A DNA stretch of 64,000 nucleotides from assembly GCF_001515525.1 (NCBI RefSeq), contig NZ_BCNQ01000015.1, positions 1 through 64,000 on the forward strand. The letters run 5' to 3'. The translations under genes were made by a program, and so were the position numbers. How positions within the stretch are numbered: the first letter of the stretch is position 1; each line of letters starts with the position of its first letter. The stretch is from Piscicoccus intestinalis NBRC 104926. GTDB taxonomy: Bacteria > Actinomycetota > Actinomycetes > Actinomycetales > Dermatophilaceae. Below the pieces are notes generated by a model. It searched no databases. It worked only from the letters and a program-made list of their open reading frames with translations, and was not told where the DNA came from. Of the stretch, positions 20,200 to 30,072 are shown piece by piece.

Positions 20200-20931
20200 T
20201 TACGGCAGCTCGGCGACCGCCTGGGCCAGCTCGACGCGGGGTCCGGTGTAGAACGGGATCTCCTCGCGCACGTGCAGCCGGGCGCGGCTGGCGCGCAGCT
20301 CACGCATGAGGTCGACGATGCGGTGCAGCTCGTCGGCCTCGAACGCCAGCACCCACTCGTAGTCGCCGAGTGCGAAGCTGGCGATCGTGTTGGCGCGCAC
20401 GTCGGGGTAGTCCCGGGCCATCTGCCCGTGCTCGCGCAGCATGTCGCGGCGCTCGGCGTCGTCGAGCACGTACCAGTCGTAGGAGCGCACGAACGGGTAG
20501 ACGCACACGTAGTCGCGGGCCCGCTCGCCGGCGAGGAAGGCCGGCAGGTGGCTCTTGTTGAACTCGGCGGGGCGGTGCAGCGCGACGACCGACCACACCG
20601 GCTCCAGGTGCGCCCCGAGGCGGGTACGGCGCAACCCGCGGTAGGCGGCCTGGGCGGCCTCGATCGTCGGCGCGTGCCACCAGAACATGAGGTCGGCGTC
20701 GGCGCGCAGGCCGGCGACGTCGTAGACGCCGCGCACGACGAGATCCTGATCGGCCAGCCCGGCGAGCAGCTCCTCGACCTCGGCGGCCATCCGCGCGCGC
20801 TCCGCCTCGTCGCGCGGTAGCGGCGTAGAGACCTTGAACACCGACCACATCGCGTAGCGGATCGTGGCGTTGAGCTCCTTGATGCGGCGGGCGTTGGGGT
20901 TCTCGGGCGTCGTCGGCGTCGCGTCGGTCAT
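20200..20931 (-). CDS. hemQ: Coproheme decarboxylase HemQ/ChdC
   Basis: The last step of the coproporphyrin-dependent heme pathway of Gram-positive bacteria: H2O2-dependent decarboxylation of coproheme to heme b. 243 residues, chlorite-dismutase-like fold. Conserved regions are [43 protein letters not shown], the [16 protein letters not shown] strand with the active-site Tyr, and [14 protein letters not shown]. The start is the ATG at 20931, 4 nt after the antiporter stop, so both are probably one transcript. HemE of the same pathway is at 28374. Confidence 0.92.
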
Positions 20932-20935
20932 GGCC

Positions 20936-22257
20936 TCATTCTCGCGATGCCGGCTCGAGATCGTGACGGGCCCCCTCCAACCAGCGCATCGCCGCGGTCG
21001 CGGTCGCGCCATGGACCAGCACCGAGACGAGGATCGTGAAGGCCACCGTCGCCCACAGCTGCTCCGCGCCGGCGAAGTCGGTCTGGCCGAACGCGTACGC
21101 GACGTAGTAGATCGAGCCGACCCCGCGGACCCCGAAGAAGGCGGTGACCAGGCGCTCCCGCGGTCCGAGTTCGCCGGCGTTGTGGGTGTCGTGCCGGCGG
21201 CCGCGCCCGAGGGCGATCAGCCCGCACACCGGGCGCACGAGGAGCACGAGCGCGAGCCCGACCGCGGCGCCCTGCCACGACAGATGGGCGAGCAGGCCGT
21301 CGGCGAGGGCCACGCCGACGAGCATGAGCAGCAGCAGCGTCAGCAGCAGCTCGAAGTACTCGATGACCTCGTGCATGTGCCCGTGGTAGTGGTGATGCCG
21401 CTCCTGGGCCCGCAGCACGAGCGCGCTGACGAAGACGGCGAGAAAGCCCCAGCCGTGCAGCACCTCGGTGAGGCCGTAGATCGCCAGCGTCGCCGCGAGC
21501 GCCAGCAGCGGCTGCCCGCGTTCGGCGAGCCGCAGCGACTGCAACCGGCTCCGAAACGCGATCTGTCCCAGCGCCCATCCGCCGACCGCGCCGACGAGCA
21601 CCCCGATGACGGTCTTGAGCAACACCTCGCTCAGGAGCCAGCCCGCGGCCCACTGCGTCGGGGAACCCTGCGTGGCCAGGTAGATCGCCGCGTACACGAA
21701 CGGGAAGGCGAACGCGTCGTTGAGCCCGGCCTCGCTGGTCAGCGCGAAGCGCACCTCGTCGTGCTCGTCGACGAGTTCGTCGGTCTCGTCGTGCTCCAGG
21801 GTCGGGCCCGCGACCTGCACGTCGGCGGCGAGCACCGGGTCGGTCGGGGCGAGCGCCGCGCCGAGCAGCAATGCCGTGGCGGGCGCCAACCCCATGGCCC
21901 ACCAGCCGAGCAGCGCCACCGCCGCGATGCACAGCGGCATCGCGATCACGAGCAACCGCCACGTCGAGCCCACCGCCTCCAGGAGCTCCAGCAGCGCGGG
22001 TCCAGGGGCCGGTCGAGCGCCAGCCCGACGCCCATGAGCGCGACGATGACCGTCAGCTCGGCGAGGTGCTCGGTGGCCGAGTCGTGCGCCAGCGGGCTGA
22101 TCGGCACCCCGCCGGTCCACGGCAGCACCCCGACGACGACGCCGACGAGGATGAGCACGATCGGCGGCGAGGCGGGCAGCCGCTGCAGCATCGTCGGCAG
22201 CACCACGGCCAGCAGCAGCGCCAGCCCCACGACGAGATAGAGGACGTCGGCGTTCAC
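20936..22257 (-). pseudogene. Na+/H+ antiporter (CPA1/NhaP type), frameshifted
   Basis: A multi-span cation:proton antiporter. The N-terminal part (MNADVLYLVVGLALLLAVVLP..., GVGLALDRPLDP) is in one frame; the rest (GSTWRLLVIAMPLCIA..., [41 protein letters not shown]) is in another. The frames must switch near 21965-21980; the total length of 1322 nt is not a multiple of three. Family signatures TDPV and ND, which carry ion-translocating acids, are intact. This is either a real one-base deletion or a sequencing error in GC-rich DNA. The start is GTG 22257. hemQ follows immediately. Confidence 0.85.
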
Positions 22258-22300
22258 CGCTGCATCGTGACAGCTACTGGCGGTGCCGGTGGAGCAGGGT

Positions 22301-23167
22301 TCACGGCCGCGTCACGGACTCGATCGGGGTGCGCAGCACGCCGAGCCGCTCGACCTCGACCTCGACTGTGTCGCCGTCGTTGAGCAGCCACTGCGGGGTG
22401 CGGGCGTACCCGACTCCGGACGGCGTGCCGGTGCACAGGATGTCGCCGGCGCGCAGCGTGAACGTGCGCGAGATGAGCGCGAGCGTCTCGCCGGCCTCGT
22501 AGATCTGCCGGTCGGTGCTGCTCTCCTGCACGGTCTGCCCGTTGACGCGGGTGCGGATCGCCAGCCCGTCGCGCAGGCCGCCCACCTCGTCGGCGGTGAC
22601 CAGCGGGCCGATCGGCCCCGAGCGGTCGGCGTTCTTGCCGAGAATCCACTGGCTCGTCAGCTTCTGGGCGATGCGGGCGGTGAGGTCGTTGAACGTCGAG
22701 TAGCCCAGGATCGCCGCGCGCGCCTCGTCGGCGTCGACGTCGGTCAGATCGGCGCCGACCCAGGCCGCCACCTCCCCCTCCCAGTCGAGACCGTTCTCGT
22801 CCTGGGGCACCGGCACCGGCACCCCACCGACGACGAGCGAGCGCGTCCAGCGCGCGAACAGAGTGGGATACGGCGCCTGGTCCTGACCCGCGAACGAACC
22901 CTCCGCGATGTGGTCCCGGTAGTTCAGCCCGATGCAGATGACGCGGGCCTCGGGCAGCACCGGCGGCACGAGGTCACCCGCCTGCACATCGACCTCCCTG
23001 CCGTCGGGCGCCGCGAGCGCGCGCCTCGGGTCGCTCCAGAAGTCTCGAAGCGGCGCGACCAGCGTGGCCGGCCCGGTCGTCGGCGTGTCCAACGCCTGGG
23101 TGCTCGCCACCCACACCTGCTCACTCGTGTCACTGGTGGCTGCCGAACGCACCCCGATGAGTCGCAT
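22301..23167 (-). CDS. Fumarylacetoacetate hydrolase (FAH) family protein
   Basis: A 288-residue enzyme of the FAH superfamily, which cleaves or isomerises 2,4-diketo acids at the end of aromatic degradation. It has ICIGLNYRDHIAE (catalytic His-containing helix), LDWEGEVAAWVG (metal ligands), GYSTFNDLTAR, KNADRSGPIGPLVTADEV and LRAGDILCTGTPSGVG. The ATG at 23167 has a GGAGA-type RBS. It diverges from a GntR regulator across a 61-bp gap and probably belongs to its regulon together with the monooxygenase and transporter beyond. Substrate unknown. Confidence 0.88.
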   Translation of the reverse strand: MRLIGVRSAATSDTSEQVWVASTQALDTPTTGPATLVAPLRDFWSDPRRALAAPDGREVDVQAGDLVPPVLPEARVICIGLNYRDHIAEGSFAGQDQAPYPTLFARWTRSLVVGGVPVPVPQDENGLDWEGEVAAWVGADLTDVDADEARAAILGYSTFNDLTARIAQKLTSQWILGKNADRSGPIGPLVTADEVGGLRDGLAIRTRVNGQTVQESSTDRQIYEAGETLALISRTFTLRAGDILCTGTPSGVGYARTPQWLLNDGDTVEVEVERLGVLRTPIESVTRP

Positions 23168-23184
23168 TCGCAATCTCCTCTCCC

Positions 23185-23221
23185 TAAACCCTTGTAAAGG
23201 TTGACATGTTTTATGCACACT
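23185..23221. promoter_or_regulatory. Divergent promoter/operator of the FAH-GntR cluster
   Basis: This AT-rich patch in a 61-bp divergent gap carries the dyad AACCCTTGTAAAGGTT (AACC/GGTT arms), in the style of GntR sites. For the plus strand, TTGTAA (23192-23197) and CACACT (23216-23221) are 18 bp apart, and CACACT is 7 nt before the GntR ATG, so a leaderless start is possible. Best guess: GntR autoregulates here and controls both directions. Confidence 0.45.
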
Positions 23222-23228
23222 AGCGCCT

Positions 23229-24023
23229 ATGAGTCCGTCGAGCGCGTCGTCCGCACCGTCTCCCCGACCGGGTGGGGAGTCGCCGCTGGGGGCGTTGTCG
23301 ATCCTGCCCGCCCGATCGCGGTCCGAACAGCTCGCCGACGTGCTCGCCGGGCACATCGACGGCAAGGGGCTGCGCGGAGGCGACCGCGTCGGCACCCTCG
23401 AGGACATCCGCGCCGAGACCGGCTTCGCGCGCGCCACGGTCAGCGAGGCGGTCCGCCTGCTGCGCGAGCGCGGCACGCTCGAGATCCGGCCCGGCCGCGG
23501 CGGCGGCATCTACGTCGCCGACCAGACGCCCGTCGTGCGGATGCGACACACGCTGCTGTCGGCGCAGGCCGGGGCCGACGATGTGGCCTACGCCATCGAG
23601 CTGCGCGAGGGACTCGAGGAGCCGGTCGCTCGCGCCGCCGCCCGCACGTGCACGCCGACCGACGCCCAGCACCTGCGTGACGCGGTGCGGGAGCTGGCCG
23701 ACAGCGCCGACTACGAGACCTTCATCCGGCGCAACTGGGCCCTGCACGAGCAGATCGCCGCGCTGTGCCCCAACCCGATGATGGGCGCGGTCTACACGAG
23801 CTGCCTCGGCTACCTCGTGCGCACCAATCCCCGCTACGACGACGTCGAGGCCGACGCCTACATCGCGCAGCGGGCGGCCGTGCACGAACGACTCGTCGAG
23901 GCGATCATCGCGGCCGACGCCAGCGCCATCGCCGACGCGGTGCGCGAACACAACCTCACCGACCCAGAACTCGGCACCGCCCGCGGCGCCGGCGCGCCCG
24001 CGCAGGAAGGACCGGTCCGATGA
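23229..24023 (+). CDS. GntR-family regulator (FadR subfamily)
   Basis: A 264-residue repressor. The winged HTH lies at about residues 30-95 (RSEQLADVLAGHIDGKGLRGGDRVGTLEDIRAETGFARATVSEAVRLLRERGTLEIRPGRGGGIYV). The all-helical FCD ligand domain follows, with the metal-binding pattern ELREGLEEPVA, NWALHEQIAAL and ERLVEAIIAADA. Such regulators sense carboxylic acids. The gene overlaps the DUF3500 gene by an ATGA, so the two are translated together, and it diverges from the FAH gene. Role inferred: pathway-specific repressor of this catabolic cluster. Confidence 0.88.
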   Translation: MSPSSASSAPSPRPGGESPLGALSILPARSRSEQLADVLAGHIDGKGLRGGDRVGTLEDIRAETGFARATVSEAVRLLRERGTLEIRPGRGGGIYVADQTPVVRMRHTLLSAQAGADDVAYAIELREGLEEPVARAAARTCTPTDAQHLRDAVRELADSADYETFIRRNWALHEQIAALCPNPMMGAVYTSCLGYLVRTNPRYDDVEADAYIAQRAAVHERLVEAIIAADASAIADAVREHNLTDPELGTARGAGAPAQEGPVR

Positions 24024-25273
24024 CCCAGGCCAGCGGCGACTACCGCGCACACCTCTTCCCGCCGGGGCACCCGCGCATCGAGTCGCTGCGCGGCCTGGAC
24101 GCCTGCGAGTACGCGCCGCGGGCCCGTCACGACGAGTTCACCGGCGGGCTCATCGACGGCTGGCGCCGCCTCTACAAGCAGCCGTTCGTCGGCGTGACCA
24201 GCGACGGGACGCTACGCGAGGGCCTGTACGACGGCGACCTCGACGTGCCGGAGGCCGACCGCGCGCCCGTCGCGGCGATGGTCGCCGCCGCCTCCGAACT
24301 GCTCGACATCACCACCGACGACGAGCGGGCGCGGCTGTGCCACGGCGTCGACGCCGTCGAATGGCAGACGTGGGCCAACCCCGAGTTCCTCCAGTTCGAC
24401 ACCGGCCTGCGGCTGGAGTTCAGCCGGCCCGAGGTCGTCGAGGCGTTTCTGCGGCTCGTGCAGGCGTCGACGAGCCCTCGCGGGTACGAGCTGATCCGCA
24501 CGGCGATGCGCATCAACGGCTTCCTCGGCGACGTCGTCGGATTGCCCGGCATCATGAACGAACTCAGCTACAACGTCGCACTCTACGGCGAGCCGCACGC
24601 CACCGACCCCTGGGGCTGGCAGCTGTACGGGCACCACTGCGCGGTCAACTGCCTGGTCGCCGGCGGCGCGATGGTCGTCTCCCCCGTCTTCCTCGGCGCC
24701 GAGCCGAACGAGATCGACGCGGGACCGCACGCCGGCACGGTCGCCTTCACCGAGCGCATCGCGCTCGGCCGGGCGATCATGGCGCAGCTGACCGACTCCC
24801 AGCGCGGCCAGGCGATCACCTACGACGCGCTCGTCGATCCCGCGATGCCGCCGGGGCGGGTGCACCCCGGCGACGAACGGCACCTCGCGGGCGCCTTCCA
24901 GGACAACCGGGTGATCCCCTACGAGGGCGTGAAGGCCGCCGAACTCTCGCCCGCGGCACAGGACCTCGTCTGGGAACTGCTCGCGGACTTCTCCTGCCTC
25001 CTGCCCGCGGGGCCCGCCCGCCGCCGCGACGCGCAGGTGCGCGCCCACGTTGCGGACACCTGGCTGAGCTGGATCGGCGGCACCGGCGCGAACGAGCCCT
25101 ACTACCTGCGCGTCCAGAGCCCGGTCGTCATCGCCGAACTCGACCACCACTGCGGGGTGTTCCTCACCAACGACACCCCCGCCCCGTTCCACATCCACAC
25201 GGTGCTGCGCACCCCCAACGGCAACGACTACGGCCGCGCCCTCGTGCGCGCCCACGGGCGCGGCGCGCGCTGA
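24020..25273 (+). CDS. DUF3500 domain protein
   Basis: 417 residues, a full-length DUF3500 protein of unknown biochemical function. Recognisable blocks are YKQPFVGVTSDGTLREGLY, EWQTWANPEFLQFDTGLRLE, YGEPHATDPWGWQLYGHHCAVN, and the C-terminal IAELDHHCGVFLTND, PAPFHIHTVLRTPNGNDYG. The last two hold several histidines and an acid, compatible with metal binding (inference only). No signal peptide. Translationally coupled to the GntR regulator upstream; an AAHS transporter and FAD monooxygenase follow. Its place suggests an enzymatic step on the imported compound or its product. Confidence 0.8.
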   Translation: MTQASGDYRAHLFPPGHPRIESLRGLDACEYAPRARHDEFTGGLIDGWRRLYKQPFVGVTSDGTLREGLYDGDLDVPEADRAPVAAMVAAASELLDITTDDERARLCHGVDAVEWQTWANPEFLQFDTGLRLEFSRPEVVEAFLRLVQASTSPRGYELIRTAMRINGFLGDVVGLPGIMNELSYNVALYGEPHATDPWGWQLYGHHCAVNCLVAGGAMVVSPVFLGAEPNEIDAGPHAGTVAFTERIALGRAIMAQLTDSQRGQAITYDALVDPAMPPGRVHPGDERHLAGAFQDNRVIPYEGVKAAELSPAAQDLVWELLADFSCLLPAGPARRRDAQVRAHVADTWLSWIGGTGANEPYYLRVQSPVVIAELDHHCGVFLTNDTPAPFHIHTVLRTPNGNDYGRALVRAHGRGAR

Positions 25274-25350
25274 CGCCCGGCTGCGCCAGCCCGCCTCCGA
25301 CTCATCGACCTGCGCTGAACCTGCGCTCGACCTGCCCCGAAGGAGTGGCC

Positions 25351-26700
25351 ATGGAGTCCCCTGCCACGACGCACGACCGCCGTGACACCCGCACGGCCCC
25401 ACGATCGGCCCTGCCGGTGTTCGTCACCTGCTGGCTGGCGCTGCTCGCCGACGGCTACGACCTGTACGTCTACGGCGCGACGCTGCCGGGTTTCATCGGC
25501 CCGCAGAACTGGGGGGTGACCCGCGAACAGGCCGGCCTGGTCGGCAGCCTCGCGCTCGTCGGCATGCTCATCGGCTCGCTGGCCGCGGGCGTGCTCACCG
25601 ACCGGTTCGGGCGTCGGCGCATGTTCGCCGTCTCCGTCGCGACGTTCTCGACGTTCATGGTGGCCTGCGCCCTCGCACCGAACTTCGCGGTCTTCGGCGT
25701 CTTCCGGTTCCTCGCCTGCCTCGGTGTCGGCGGGCTGCTGCCGACCGCGGTCGCCGTCGCCAACGAGTTCGCCGGGGCCGCGCGCAAGTCGATCGTGCTC
25801 GGCGCCGTGCTCACCGGGCCCGCCGTCGGCACCGTCATCGCCTCGACGGCCGCCGCGACCCTCATCCCCGCGCACGGCGTGCGCCCGGTCTACGCGATCG
25901 GCGGGCTGGCGCTGCTGCTCATCCCCGTCGCGCTGCGCGTGCTGCCGGAGTCGCCCGCGTTCCTGCGGGTGCGCGGCCGCGACGACGAGGCCGACGCCAT
26001 CGCCGGCCGCTACGGGTTGCCCGTGCCCGAACGCGCCCGTTGCGTCGGCAGCGCCACCCCCACCGCCGCCGGCGGGCTCTTCCAGGGCGGGCTGGCTCCG
26101 GCCACGCTCGGGATCTGGGCCATCTGCCTGCTGAGCCTGCTGACGATCTTCGGCCTGACGACGTGGCTGCCGCAGGTCATGCGGGAGGCGGGCTTCGGGA
26201 CGAGCGCCGCGATCCGGTTCCTGCTGTGGTACTCCCTCGGCGCGATCGTCGGCACCCTCATCGCCTCCCGCGTGGGTCAGCGCACCTCCCCGAAGGTCGT
26301 GGTCGTCATCGGCTTCGCCAGCGCCGCCCTCGCCCTCGCGTTCGTCTCCACACAACCCACTGGGGTCGCGCTCATCGCGGCCGTCGTCGTCGCCGGCTTC
26401 GGCGGCCTCGGCACGCAGAACATGATCAACGACCACATCGCGCAGTTCTACCCGGCGCACCTGCGGGCCACCGGGCTCGGCTGGGCGCTGGCCGTCGGCC
26501 GGATCGGTGCGATCGCCGGACCGACCTACGGCGCCATGATGATCGGCGCGACCGGCGGCGTTCAGGCAGCAGCGATCGCCTTCGGCGTGCCGGCCGCGAT
26601 CGGCGCCGTCATCGCGCTCGCCCTGCCGTCGATCGCCCGCCGCCACGGGGCGAACGAGCCCGGCGAGACCATGCTCGAGCCGACCAAGGCCGAGTCGTGA
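25351..26700 (+). CDS. MFS transporter, aromatic acid:H+ symporter (AAHS) family
   Basis: 449 residues with 12 predicted membrane spans. The AAHS signature is at residues 31-46 (LLADGYDLYVYGATLP, with the DGYD acid essential in PcaK-type carriers), and the MFS loop motif is GVLTDRFGRRRM. A strong RBS (AAGGAG) precedes the ATG. The stop overlaps the start of the FAD monooxygenase by GTGA. It probably imports a benzoate- or hydroxybenzoate-like acid by proton symport; the exact substrate cannot be read from sequence. Confidence 0.88.
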   Translation: MESPATTHDRRDTRTAPRSALPVFVTCWLALLADGYDLYVYGATLPGFIGPQNWGVTREQAGLVGSLALVGMLIGSLAAGVLTDRFGRRRMFAVSVATFSTFMVACALAPNFAVFGVFRFLACLGVGGLLPTAVAVANEFAGAARKSIVLGAVLTGPAVGTVIASTAAATLIPAHGVRPVYAIGGLALLLIPVALRVLPESPAFLRVRGRDDEADAIAGRYGLPVPERARCVGSATPTAAGGLFQGGLAPATLGIWAICLLSLLTIFGLTTWLPQVMREAGFGTSAAIRFLLWYSLGAIVGTLIASRVGQRTSPKVVVVIGFASAALALAFVSTQPTGVALIAAVVVAGFGGLGTQNMINDHIAQFYPAHLRATGLGWALAVGRIGAIAGPTYGAMMIGATGGVQAAAIAFGVPAAIGAVIALALPSIARRHGANEPGETMLEPTKAES

Positions 26701-28349
26701 CCCGCCGCTCCCCGGCGACCGTCGCGGACCTGCCCGAGCACGCCCCGGTCGTCATCGCCGGAGGCGGGCCGAGCGGCCTCATGGCCGCCCTCGACCTCGC
26801 GCGGCGCGGCGTCGCGTCGGTCGTCATCGAGCCGCGGCTCGACGTCGATCCCTACCGGCCGCGGGCCAAGACGACCAACGCCCGGACCATGACGATGCTG
26901 CGTGCGCTCGGTCTGGCCGACGAGATCCGCAGGGTCGCACCGCTGTCGGTCGACTACTCCGAGGACGTCGTCTTCTGCACCGGCGTCGACGGACACGAGC
27001 TGCGCCGCTTCCGCCACGCGTTCCAGCTCTACGCCGACGGCTTCGCGCACTCCCCCGAGATCGGCCAGCAGATCCCGCAGCCGCTCGTCGAACAGGTGCT
27101 GCGGGAGGCGGTCGCCCGGCACCCGCGGTGCCTGCTGCTGCTCGGCCCCCGGGTCGACGCGGTGGCCGACGCGGTGGCCGACGCCGACTCCGACCATCCG
27201 GTCGTGACGGTGAGCGACGGGTACGGCGGGTGTCGGCGGATCCGCGCCGACTACGTCATCGGCGCCGACGGCGGCGCGTCGGCGGTCCGCAAGAGCCTCG
27301 GAATCGCCATGGAGGGCACATCGGCGCCGCGCCCGAACTTCAACGTCGTGTTCCGCTCGCGCGAGCTCGCGGACCGGGTGAGCGTGCCTGCGGCCGTGCA
27401 GTACTGGATCGTCGGCGAGGTCAGCGGCATGCTCGGCCGGCTCGACCTGACCGACCGCTGGTGGACGATCGTGCAGGGCGTCGACCCCGCCCATTGCGAC
27501 GACCCGGCCGGGCTCGTGCGACGCCTCGCGGGGGTCGGTGACGACGTCGACGTCGAGGTGCTCGGCAGCGACCCGTGGACCGCGCAGATGCTGCTGGCGA
27601 CCGGCTACGGCCGGGGCCGGGTGTTCCTCGTGGGCGACGCCGCGCACCTCAATCCGCCGTGGGGCGGGCACGGCTTCAACACGTGCGCGGTCGACGCGCT
27701 CAACCTCACCTGGAAGATCGCGGCCGCCCTGCAGGGGTGGGCGGGACCGGCCCTGCTCGGCTCGTACGAGGCCGAGCGCCGGCCGGCCGCGCGACGCATG
27801 ATCGACGTCGCGGCGAACAACGGCAACCAACTCGCGTACTCGTTCGCCGACCCGGCGCTGACCCGGGACGACGCGGCCGGGGGCGCGGCCCGCCGCGCGG
27901 CCCACGACCGGCTGGCGGTCAAGGACGCCGAGTTCCACGCCGAGGGAGTGGTGCTCGGCTACCGCTATCCCGACTCCGCACTGGTGACGCCCGACGGCAG
28001 CGCGCCCCCGCCGTTCGATCCGGTGGTCTACACGCCGTCGGCCCATCCCGGCTCGCTGCTCCCGCACCTGCCCCTACACGGCCGGGCGTCGGTCTACGAC
28101 CTGCTCGGTGACGGGTTCACGCTCCTGCTGTGCCGGGACCGCACGGTCGTCGACCACACACTGTTGTGTGACGTCGACCGGCGTGGCGTGCCGCTGGAGG
28201 TCGTCGAGGTGACCGGCGCGAACGCGGCTCGCGCCCGCGAGCTGTGGGAGGCCGAGGCCGTGCTCGTGCGCCCCGATCAGCACGTCGCCTGGCGCGGCGA
28301 CGACCTGACGGCGCTCCCGGCGGCCCTGCATCGGGCCGCCGGCCGGTAG
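26697..28349 (+). CDS. FAD-dependent aromatic monooxygenase (PheA/TfdB/MhpA type)
   Basis: About 550 residues, a group A flavoprotein hydroxylase. FAD fingerprint VVIAGGGPSGLMAALDLARRG (near residue 20), DG motif YVIGADGGASAVRKSLG, GD motif RVFLVGDAAHLNPPWGGHGFNTCAVDALNLTWK, and a C-terminal thioredoxin-like domain typical of phenol hydroxylase/MhpA relatives. These enzymes use NAD(P)H and O2 to hydroxylate a phenolic ring. The GTG start overlaps the transporter stop. No ring-cleaving dioxygenase is found in the cluster. Confidence 0.88.
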   Translation: MTRRSPATVADLPEHAPVVIAGGGPSGLMAALDLARRGVASVVIEPRLDVDPYRPRAKTTNARTMTMLRALGLADEIRRVAPLSVDYSEDVVFCTGVDGHELRRFRHAFQLYADGFAHSPEIGQQIPQPLVEQVLREAVARHPRCLLLLGPRVDAVADAVADADSDHPVVTVSDGYGGCRRIRADYVIGADGGASAVRKSLGIAMEGTSAPRPNFNVVFRSRELADRVSVPAAVQYWIVGEVSGMLGRLDLTDRWWTIVQGVDPAHCDDPAGLVRRLAGVGDDVDVEVLGSDPWTAQMLLATGYGRGRVFLVGDAAHLNPPWGGHGFNTCAVDALNLTWKIAAALQGWAGPALLGSYEAERRPAARRMIDVAANNGNQLAYSFADPALTRDDAAGGAARRAAHDRLAVKDAEFHAEGVVLGYRYPDSALVTPDGSAPPPFDPVVYTPSAHPGSLLPHLPLHGRASVYDLLGDGFTLLLCRDRTVVDHTLLCDVDRRGVPLEVVEVTGANAARARELWEAEAVLVRPDQHVAWRGDDLTALPAALHRAAGR

Positions 28350-28373
28350 TCGCGCACGCGCGCAGGCGAGCTG

Positions 28374-29417
28374 CTACTCCCCCAGGCTCTTGACGAGCTC
28401 GACGATGCGGGTCAGCACGTCGGGGTCGGTCTCGGGGGGCACGCCGTGGCCGAGGTTGAGGATGTGCCCGGCCGCGGCCCGGCCCTGGGTGACGATGCGG
28501 CGCACGTGCGCCTCGATGACCTCCCACGGCGCGAACAGCAGCGCCGGGTCGAGGTTGCCCTGCAGCGCGTAGCGCCCGCCGAGTCGCTCGTTGGCGTCGT
28601 CGAGGTCGACGCGGAAGTCGACACCCACGACCTCGGCGCCCGCCGCGCCCATCGACGCGAGCAGCTCACCGGTGCCGACGCCGAAGTGGATCCGCGGCAC
28701 GTCGAGGTCGGCGACCGCACCGAGCGCCACCCGCGAGTGCGGCTGCACGAACTCCTCGTAGTCGCGCCGCGACAGCGCGCCCGCCCAGCTGTCGAACAGC
28801 TGCACCGCGCTCGCCCCCGCCTCCACCTGCACCCGCAGGAACTCCCCGGAGATCTGCGCGAGGCGGGCGCACAGGTCATGCCACAGCGCCGGGTCGGCGT
28901 GCATGAGCGCCTTCGTGCGCGCGTGCGTCTTGCTCGGGCCTCCCTCGACGAGGTAACTGGCCAGCGTGAACGGCGCCCCTGCGAAGCCGATGAGCGGGGT
29001 GTCGCCGAGCTCGGCGACGAGCAGGCGCACCGACTCCGTGATGTCGGGCACGTGCTCACCAGTCAGCTCGGGCAGCCGGTCGAGGTCGGCGCGCGTAGCC
29101 ACGGGCTGGGCCACGACCGGGCCCACGCCGGGCACGATGTCGAGGTCGATCCCCACCGCACCGACGGGAACGACGATGTCGCTGAAGAAGATCGCCGCGT
29201 CGACGCCGTGTCGGCGCACCGGCTGCATCGTGATCTCGGTGACGAGGTCGGGGCGCCGGCACGACTCCAGCATGCCCACGCCCTCGCGGATCGCCCGGTA
29301 CTCGGGCAGCGAGCGCCCGGCCTGCCGCATGAACCACACCGGGGGGCGGGCTCCGGGCTCGTGACGGGCGGCGCGCACGAGCAGGCTCTCGCGCGCGGGG
29401 CGGGGCGCATGGTCCAT
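28374..29417 (-). CDS. hemE: Uroporphyrinogen decarboxylase
   Basis: Converts uroporphyrinogen III to coproporphyrinogen III in heme synthesis. 347 residues with the signature [17 protein letters not shown], the catalytic Asp loop [61 protein letters not shown] and the C-terminal [16 protein letters not shown]. The ATG at 29417 matches the family N-terminus; GAGGAT, 6 nt upstream, may be either RBS or -10. Divergent from DUF3000 and the RNase D gene, the standard actinobacterial order. Confidence 0.95.
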
Positions 29418-29487
29418 CCGCCGATCCTCGCACGCACGTTCGGCGTGGTGCCCACGGGGCGAGCCGGGAGCACCATAGATTCCTCGC

Positions 29488-30072
29488 GTGAGCCGCCGAT
29501 CGGCACCACAGGTGTCCACCACATTCAACAGCGCCGTGGAGGCGCTGCGTGCGGTGCGGCTGCGCCCCGAGATCCACCTCGAGGAGGTTCCGGCGCCGCA
29601 GCGTATCGCGCCGCACTCCGCAGCCCTCGCCGGCGAGGTCGTGCGCGGACCCCGGGCCACCGACGACGTCCTCGCCAGCGGGCGATTCGTCGTGCTCTAC
29701 GACCCCGCGGCCCCCGAGGCCTGGGAGGGTCCGTGGCGCGTCGTCACGTTCACGCGCGCCCACCTGGAGGCCGAGTTGGGCGCCGACGCCCTGCTCGGCG
29801 AGGTCGGCTGGTCGTGGCTGACCGACGCGATCCACGCCAACGGAGCCGGGTACGAGGCCCTCGGCGGCACCGTCACCCGGGTCGTCTCGGAGAGCTTCGG
29901 CGCCCTGGCCGACCGCGACGGCGAGGTCGAGATCGAGGTGCGCGCCAGCTGGTCGCCCACCGAGCCCGACCTCGTCGACCACCTGAAGATCTGGACCGAC
30001 CTGCTGTGCACGGTCGCCGGCCTGCCGCCCCTGCCCGAGGGCGTCACCGCGCTCCCCGGGCAGCTGCGGTAG
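29488..30072 (+). CDS. DUF3000 domain protein
   Basis: 194 residues, an actinobacterial protein of unknown function always found near hemE and RNase D. Typical blocks are [55 protein letters not shown] and [11 protein letters not shown]. No signal peptide or membrane span. The GTG at 29488 is preceded 6 nt upstream by TAGATT (29476-29481), a -10 box, so the mRNA is probably leaderless. RNase D follows after 10 nt, so the two are probably cotranscribed. Confidence 0.88.

Follow-up and report, generated by a model that had tools for sequence, protein, structure and literature searches.

A DUF3500 protein proposed to cleave the aromatic ring in a putative flavonol A-ring gene cluster of Piscicoccus intestinalis

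The window analyzed in this study is a 64,000-nucleotide stretch (positions 1 to 64,000) of contig NZ_BCNQ01000015.1 from Piscicoccus intestinalis NBRC 104926. One of its gene clusters encodes a FAH-family hydrolase, a GntR regulator, a protein of the DUF3500 family, an importer of the aromatic acid/H+ symport (AAHS) type and a FAD-dependent monooxygenase (Table 1). Our analysis concerns the DUF3500 protein, which a first-pass annotation of the sequence had suggested as the missing ring-cleavage step of an aromatic acid pathway. In agreement with that annotation, Pfam and NCBIfam matches placed all five genes inside positions 22301-28349, and no sixth cluster gene was assigned in the window. 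The FAH gene is divergent from the remaining four. As had been read from the sequence before, the DUF3500 gene is joined to that of the regulator, with a four-base ATGA overlap; the importer and monooxygenase genes share a GTGA overlap.

The window DUF3500 protein matched PF12006 with 323.9 bits (cut-off 27.2) over residues 81-406, which cover positions 2-297 of the 297-position profile. The GntR domain of the regulator scored 26.0 bits in Pfam, just below the cut-off of 27.0, and the best NCBIfam model for the importer, TIGR00895 (E = 1.6e-83), reached 281 bits, below its curated cut-off of 419. None of the five cluster proteins matched a classical ring-cleavage dioxygenase family in Pfam or NCBIfam, which bears out the absence of such an enzyme noted in the first pass. 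Compared with intradiol, extradiol and cupin families, the DUF3500 protein gave only PF12006 in Pfam (E ≤ 1e-3) and nothing in NCBIfam (E ≤ 1e-6). The whole genome (4.7 Mb in 336 contigs) contains one DUF3500 match and five FAH matches. Outside the cluster it has further ring-cleavage genes, PF00775 being matched by two genes side by side on contig C99 and weakly on contig C21.

Table 1 Genes of the catabolic cluster in the window and the predicted operator of its regulator
Feature	Coordinates	Strand	Match or sequence	Proposed role
FAH-family hydrolase	22301-23167	minus	PF01557, E = 4e-62	proposed acylpyruvate (2,4-dioxoadipate) hydrolase after ring cleavage
Predicted operator of the GntR regulator	23195-23213		TAAAGGTTGACATGTTTTA, degenerate copy of TAAAGGTT-N2-AACCTTTA	
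GntR/FCD transcriptional regulator	23229-24023	plus	FCD, E = 5.2e-18	
DUF3500 protein	24020-25273	plus	PF12006, E = 1.5e-96	proposed 1,2,3,5-tetrahydroxybenzene (THB) ring-cleaving dioxygenase
MFS importer, aromatic acid/H+ symport kind	25351-26700	plus	PF07690, E = 5.9e-48	
FAD-dependent aromatic-ring hydroxylase (monooxygenase)	26697-28349	plus	PF01494, E = 1.5e-67; PF21274, E = 5.5e-13	proposed 2,4,6-trihydroxybenzoate 1-monooxygenase (decarboxylating), product THB

Genomic context of DUF3500 genes

A scan of named genomes returned 186 DUF3500 relatives, and the best 80 of them (at least 56% identity, all actinobacterial) were used to compare gene neighbourhoods. An ortholog of the window FAH (53-74% identity) lay near the DUF3500 gene in 77 of the 80 loci, at most 1,873 bases away; the three loci without it were L073, L084 and L094, the first of which is flanked on one side by no more than 837 bases. 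The monooxygenase was found in 58 loci at >80 bits and in 51 at >120 bits; within 8 kb, 36 loci had the regulator ortholog and 20 the importer. The link to aromatic enzymes on which the first-pass suggestion hinged thus exists in close relatives.

Farther from the window protein, the picture changes. Among 13 DUF3500 stretches from a genome survey, a close FAH ortholog occurred only in the four with 58-70% DUF3500 identity, three of which are loci already in the named set (L036, L072 and L099). Three more distant stretches (44-47% DUF3500 identity) had a weaker FAH match (34-36%, 106-127 bits), and the remaining six distant ones had no FAH match or one of only 38 bits. The link to FAH is therefore tight in the subfamily of the window protein and fades beyond it. 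Any PF12006 match was found in 26 of 396 genomes of the phylum, many of these proteins being shorter and distant (23-33% identity). For shorter proteins in this identity range (L008-L024), the surrounding 2.3-4.1 kb contained nothing that matched the window FAH. In a FAH tree of 99 rows, one clade (97/97) consisted of 81 DUF3500-linked FAHs and 11 FAHs linked to an intradiol dioxygenase (see below). This clade excluded the four further FAHs from the own genome as well as those from plasmids of Thioclava, Paraburkholderia and R. qingshengii.

In Brevibacterium loci and those of the Arthrobacter type, DUF3500 has a bicupin gene as neighbour, in some cases together with rhamnosidase, GH1 and esterase genes. 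The bicupin product matches the quercetin 2,3-dioxygenase of B. subtilis (2h0v, E = 2e-64). A single-domain cupin, found mostly in Geodermatophilaceae loci, matches the quercetinase QueD (5fli, E = 4e-45). Overall, 39 of the 80 loci have a quercetinase no more than 10 kb from DUF3500, 23 of them with the bicupin and 16 with the QueD type. Other neighbours within this distance are esterases (43 loci), CoA-transferases (15), GH1 (14), rhamnosidases (12) and AccA/D-like proteins (11). All 39 quercetinase loci are among the 51 with a monooxygenase and none among the 29 without (Fisher's exact test with kinship ignored; p = 1.5e-12). From its length and a cupin match, the bicupin had at first been taken for a gentisate dioxygenase; the gentisate pathway, and with it this counter-evidence, was dropped because comparison with the PDB (E ≤ 1e-3) gave only six quercetinase sequences, one of them yxaG.

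The first-pass annotation had expected monooxygenases and FAH near DUF3500 and no dioxygenases. The former part stood, and the latter did not: besides the quercetinases, queries with two hydroxyquinol 1,2-dioxygenases, a PcaH and an HpaD (a count that leaves out LigB-, gentisate- and homogentisate-type genes) revealed protocatechuate- or hydroxyquinol-type enzymes in five of the 80 loci (L050, L051, L052, L057 and L062), with a weak match in L044. In the scheme proposed below, all these enzymes would act on other substrates. A Pfam scan of unlabelled neighbours covered 125 of 262 representatives and the 25 most frequent of 139 families, and single dioxygenase genes could escape it. In the two Brevibacterium loci L050 and L051 the genes are those of a protocatechuate 3,4-dioxygenase, an activity that would fit the product released from the B-ring of quercetin.

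The association with quercetinases was also seen at the level of whole genomes. In a survey of 394 genomes of the class, which held the window's genome by choice, bicupin quercetinases (E ≤ 1e-40) were detected in six, QueD (E ≤ 1e-30) in 11 and DUF3500 (E ≤ 1e-40) in 13 genomes. A quercetinase was present in 5/13 DUF3500 genomes vs 12/381 others (p = 8e-5) and, when DUF3500 was restricted to at least 46% identity, in 4/8 vs 13/386 (p = 1.5e-4). With the window genome excluded, the respective proportions were 4/12 (p = 8e-4) and 3/7 (p = 2e-3). The own genome encodes a cupin of the QueD type (5fli, E = 2.6e-41) that adjoins an esterase on contig C8, not the window contig; at the survey thresholds, neither DUF3500 nor quercetinase was found in the seven further genomes listed for its family. 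In genome G657 (stretches L168 and L177) the genes are spread over two contigs: those for QueD, esterase and hydroxylase are on the first and those for DUF3500, FAH, GntR, CoA-transferase and AccA/D-like proteins on the second. The break coincides with the point at which the product of the hydroxylase would pass to the next enzyme. Linkage is possible in G639 (stretch L175), because quercetinase and DUF3500 both lie at contig ends; in G316 they are on separate contigs. Of 17 quercetinase stretches sampled directly, 15 had an esterase match >100 bits. Five bicupin stretches without DUF3500 (L170-L174, the last from G316) each adjoin an esterase match, and L172 also holds a hydroxyquinol-type dioxygenase match (43%).

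An intradiol dioxygenase in the place of DUF3500

The strongest support for a ring-cleaving DUF3500 protein, not foreseen in the first-pass annotation, is the occurrence of an intradiol dioxygenase in its place in one actinobacterial family. Genomes G617 and G727, which belong to one genus, have QueD, esterase, FAH and hydroxylase genes together and no DUF3500 gene there. The gene between esterase and FAH encodes a hydroxyquinol-type intradiol dioxygenase (PF04444 and PF00775; E = 3e-63 to 1tmx). PF12006 has no match in G617, and the one copy in G727 is distant (27% identity) and lies on a different contig. A search of 250 genomes of this family with the intradiol dioxygenase (E ≤ 1e-90) yielded 14 loci, including those of G617 and G727. 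Eleven contain the FAH ortholog (55-67% identity to that of the window), eight the hydroxylase (41-50%), five the GntR regulator (43-47%) and two QueD plus esterase, and DUF3500 is present in none. Partner genes are missing from L211, L214 and L215; L206, L213 and L214 are shorter stretches. The gene order in Modestobacter L041 is QueD-esterase-FAH-DUF3500-hydroxylase, whereas that in L183 is QueD-esterase-intradiol dioxygenase-FAH-hydroxylase. Residues Y206, Y240, H264 and H266 of the L183 enzyme (encoded at L183:11334-12371), which we take to be the intradiol ligand residues, are invariant in nine aligned sequences, of which the 14 loci contributed eight.

A hydroxylase tree of 64 rows (FastTree, SH-like support; monooxygenase matches <380 residues excluded) placed five of the eight intradiol-linked rows in a 25-row clade (97) together with 15 QueD-linked rows, and the other three (L207-L209) branched outside 55 others. 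The window hydroxylase belongs to a 10-row clade (97) with six quercetinase-linked rows and to a 29-row clade (100) that includes all 22 bicupin-linked rows.

The hydroxyquinol 1,2-dioxygenase family (PF04444 and PF00775; PDB 1tmx) thus stands beside orthologs of the same FAH and monooxygenase as DUF3500, whereas the DUF3500 protein has no match to its Pfam families. None of the 11 FAH-bearing intradiol loci has a maleylacetate reductase, which speaks against a plain hydroxyquinol pathway, as that pathway needs this enzyme. The reductase was found in L032, L057 and L062 and, as two pieces, in L046, the first three possessing the canonical hydroxyquinol set of hydroxyquinol-type gene and reductase. 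FAH in place of the reductase fits a ring-cleavage product that, as expected from THB, contains an additional oxygen. Because a known ring-opening enzyme occupies the place of DUF3500 in some related clusters, the DUF3500 protein probably opens the ring itself. The ring-cleavage role suggested in the first pass has thereby gained ground, and context and replacement make it appear well supported.

Proposed pathway and alternative explanations

We propose that the cluster represents the lower, A-ring half of flavonol (quercetin/rutin) catabolism and is the bacterial counterpart of the fungal THB central pathway, a reading to which we assign a probability of roughly 0.65. From the genes present we infer each of the chemical steps that follow, including the THB intermediate, the use of O2 and a metal by DUF3500 and the malonate product. 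The quercetinase encoded on contig C8 would open quercetin to a depside and CO, and the adjacent alpha/beta-hydrolase would split the depside into protocatechuate and 2,4,6-trihydroxybenzoate; both reactions would follow established quercetinase chemistry. The AAHS-type importer could also take up 2,4,6-trihydroxybenzoate. The FAD monooxygenase would then hydroxylate and decarboxylate this acid to THB, which DUF3500 and O2 would cleave in intradiol fashion between carbons 1 and 2 to 2,4-dihydroxymuconate. The product may take its keto form, 2,4-dioxoadipate, which is an acylpyruvate, or form a lactone, whose derived composition (C6H4O5) is the formula expected for 5-hydroxydienelactone. FAH would finally hydrolyse 2,4-dioxoadipate to pyruvate and malonate. 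Malonate is suggested by this derived chemistry together with the CoA-transferase and AccA/AccD-like neighbours, which score below the NCBIfam cut-offs. A malonyl-CoA synthetase was considered and rejected, the AMP-binding proteins near some loci not being malonate-specific.

Ring cleavage by DUF3500 is not a new proposal for fungi. According to one publication, the Aspergillus nidulans DUF3500 protein AN10530 has been proposed as the dioxygenase that converts THB, there a gallate-derived substrate, to 5-hydroxydienelactone, and a 2026 paper describes the THB pathway as apparently restricted to fungi (PMC12388069, PMC13094099). The window cluster shares with this pathway the DUF3500 protein as proposed ring-cleavage dioxygenase as well as a monooxygenase and FAH. 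It differs in being bacterial, in its GntR regulator and AAHS-type importer, in its apparent source, the flavonol A-ring via 2,4,6-trihydroxybenzoate, and in that the ring cleaver of one actinobacterial family is an intradiol dioxygenase. A DUF3500 gene clustered with a monooxygenase, a FAH-like gene and a short protein acting on 5-hydroxydienelactone was reportedly described by Martins et al. in Microb Biotechnol in 2024 (e14371); the window cluster has no additional gene assigned that might encode such a short protein. A published table lists a Rhodococcus DUF3500 gene near hydroxylase, MFS and FCD genes. Within the partly accessible literature searched, neither a link of bacterial DUF3500 to quercetinase or THB nor a fate of the quercetin A-ring acid was found. 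What is new here is the contextual evidence for an actinobacterial counterpart, the proposed source of the substrate and the independent test by replacement. Known quercetinase pathways (QdoI- or QueD-type enzyme plus esterase) have either quercetinase type in common with the neighbourhoods of DUF3500 relatives, whereas the window cluster proposes a fate for the A-ring acid.

An alignment of nine diverse DUF3500 members showed H205, H206, N210, E373, H391, H393 and R397 to be invariant. In an alignment of 40 sequences (A3), D285-E286-R287-H288, Q294-D295-N296-R297, D375-H376-H377 and G379 were kept and C378 was variable (L027, L079 and L109 were excluded from alignments). Of the two histidine-rich motifs pointed out in the first pass, FHIHTV contains the invariant pair H391 and H393, whereas DHHCG is less general, being missing from short forms and from PDB 9x86 and altered in L006. 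A model of the window protein built from the 40 sequences (pLDDT 82, pTM 0.88) had one clear match among solved structures, 9x86 (Foldseek, E = 2.7e-17; VIA-align, Z 19.7 over 254 residues, 27% identity), and the second-best VIA-align match reached only Z 3.8. Our guess is that H205, H206, E373, H391 and H393 might form a metal site.

Several of these data and the distribution of the genes weigh against the proposed reading, and they bear on what else the DUF3500 protein might be. The main reason for caution is that its sole solved relative, 9x86 (ApmL/Amc20), is titled 'dehydratase ApmL in Amipurimycin biosynthesis'. ApmL has the same fold and keeps GHH (205-206), E373 and HxH (391, 393), so these residues need not mean an oxygenase. 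The fold searches (Foldseek, VIA-align) listed no known dioxygenase, by which one is not excluded. ApmL differs from the window protein in its role in antibiotic biosynthesis, in having no counterpart of the first ~80 residues and in lacking the DERH...QDNR and DHH residues of the catabolic subfamily. DUF3500 could accordingly be a hydrolase, dehydratase or tautomerase whose substrate would be the polyphenol in its keto form or the ring-cleaved product, with the ring opened hydrolytically or by an enzyme encoded elsewhere; from general knowledge of the family, FAH-type enzymes can split other beta-diketones as well. We consider this unlikely, as an intradiol dioxygenase stands beside the orthologous FAH and monooxygenase in loci without DUF3500, and as the fungal product 5-hydroxydienelactone is at the oxidation level of a dioxygenase product when derived by formula.

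The survey loci, the best-matching 80 of 186, lack the monooxygenase in 29 cases and a nearby quercetinase in 41, and the nearest relatives, L036 and L037, are included here. None of the nine distant DUF3500 stretches (31-48% identity) has a close FAH ortholog. DUF3500 was found in none of the 17 quercetinase stretches, and at E ≤ 1e-40 it is absent from 12 of the 17 genomes with a quercetinase. The loci without monooxygenase or quercetinase and the quercetinase stretches without DUF3500 would also fit a ring-cleaving dioxygenase for another substrate (gallate, pyrogallol, hydroxyquinol or a homoprotocatechuate-type compound), with quercetin as one use among several. This explanation, which could also draw on the Thioclava DUF3500 and FAH genes near hpaH, HpaI-type aldolase and hpaD genes, the Rieske gene on a Streptomyces plasmid, the P450 in L062 and the gallate-derived substrate of the fungal report, seems to us a rather doubtful one. 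The window monooxygenase falls in a quercetinase-linked clade, its genome has a quercetinase, and the absence of maleylacetate reductase from the 11 displaced loci argues against plain hydroxyquinol. Very improbable, in our view, is an accessory DUF3500 protein, with the ring cleaved by the genome's protocatechuate dioxygenase or some other one. In favour of this one could cite the PF00775 genes on C99 and the protocatechuate dioxygenase genes of the two Brevibacterium loci; these enzymes fit the B-ring product protocatechuate, and DUF3500 is kept with FAH in nearly all of the 80 loci, intradiol genes having matched in five. The replacement has its own limits: it was seen in one family only, with a quercetinase in just two of its 14 loci, and genome G441, which has the swap, also holds two distant DUF3500 genes (33-36%) elsewhere.

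Returning to THB cleavage by DUF3500, we lean slightly toward the more specific proposal that the family is a new structural class of ring-cleaving dioxygenase, distinct from intradiol, extradiol and cupin folds and interchangeable with the hydroxyquinol-type intradiol enzyme in a widespread actinobacterial THB pathway serving to break down the A-ring of flavonols of the quercetin type. If true, this would give a chemistry to an unnamed protein family and add a ring cleaver whose fold is not that of a known dioxygenase, and it would explain what soil bacteria do with the 2,4,6-trihydroxybenzoate released from quercetin. Many actinobacterial genera would likely possess the counterpart pathway with the flavonol A-ring as natural source, and the lineages with a known-type dioxygenase instead of DUF3500 would provide a natural control.

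Predicted operator and further observations

The palindrome of which the predicted operator is a copy with four mismatches (Table 1) occurs in some relatives. It is exact in 6 of 39 FAH-GntR stretches, a set that includes the window's and in which L158 repeats L036; 21 stretches contain it with at most four mismatches and 18 with 5 to 7. Letter-shuffled stretches reach four mismatches in ~0.1 of 39, the motif having been derived from the same stretches as those scored. Within the window the motif occurs only at this cluster, and it is absent from the 20-kb stretch around the own quercetinase and the 8-kb stretch around the PF00775 genes on C99. Another dioxygenase under the same GntR site, considered in the first pass, was consequently not encountered in these three stretches, to which the scan of this genome was limited.

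In three Streptomyces loci (L030, L045 and L062), FAH, GntR and DUF3500 genes occur without a hydroxylase; a P450 gene is nearby in all three, and L030 and L045 also have Rieske-type neighbours. These neighbours perhaps represent another entry route. Six plasmid regions were viewed out of 46 plasmid records with a DUF3500 match, and five have a nearby FAH-family gene; that of Streptomyces chartreusis (L034) has none. A scan of viral contigs confirmed no DUF3500 relative, and a phage set gave one distant match. Corynebacterium glutamicum, a tractable laboratory species used as control genome, has a DUF3500 match.

In the window (20200-29660), the cluster and a Na/H exchanger gene are flanked by a chlorite-dismutase-family (hemQ-like) gene and hemE, two genes that often adjoin in actinobacteria. 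As DUF3500 is missing from the other seven genomes listed for the family, the cluster may be an insertion.

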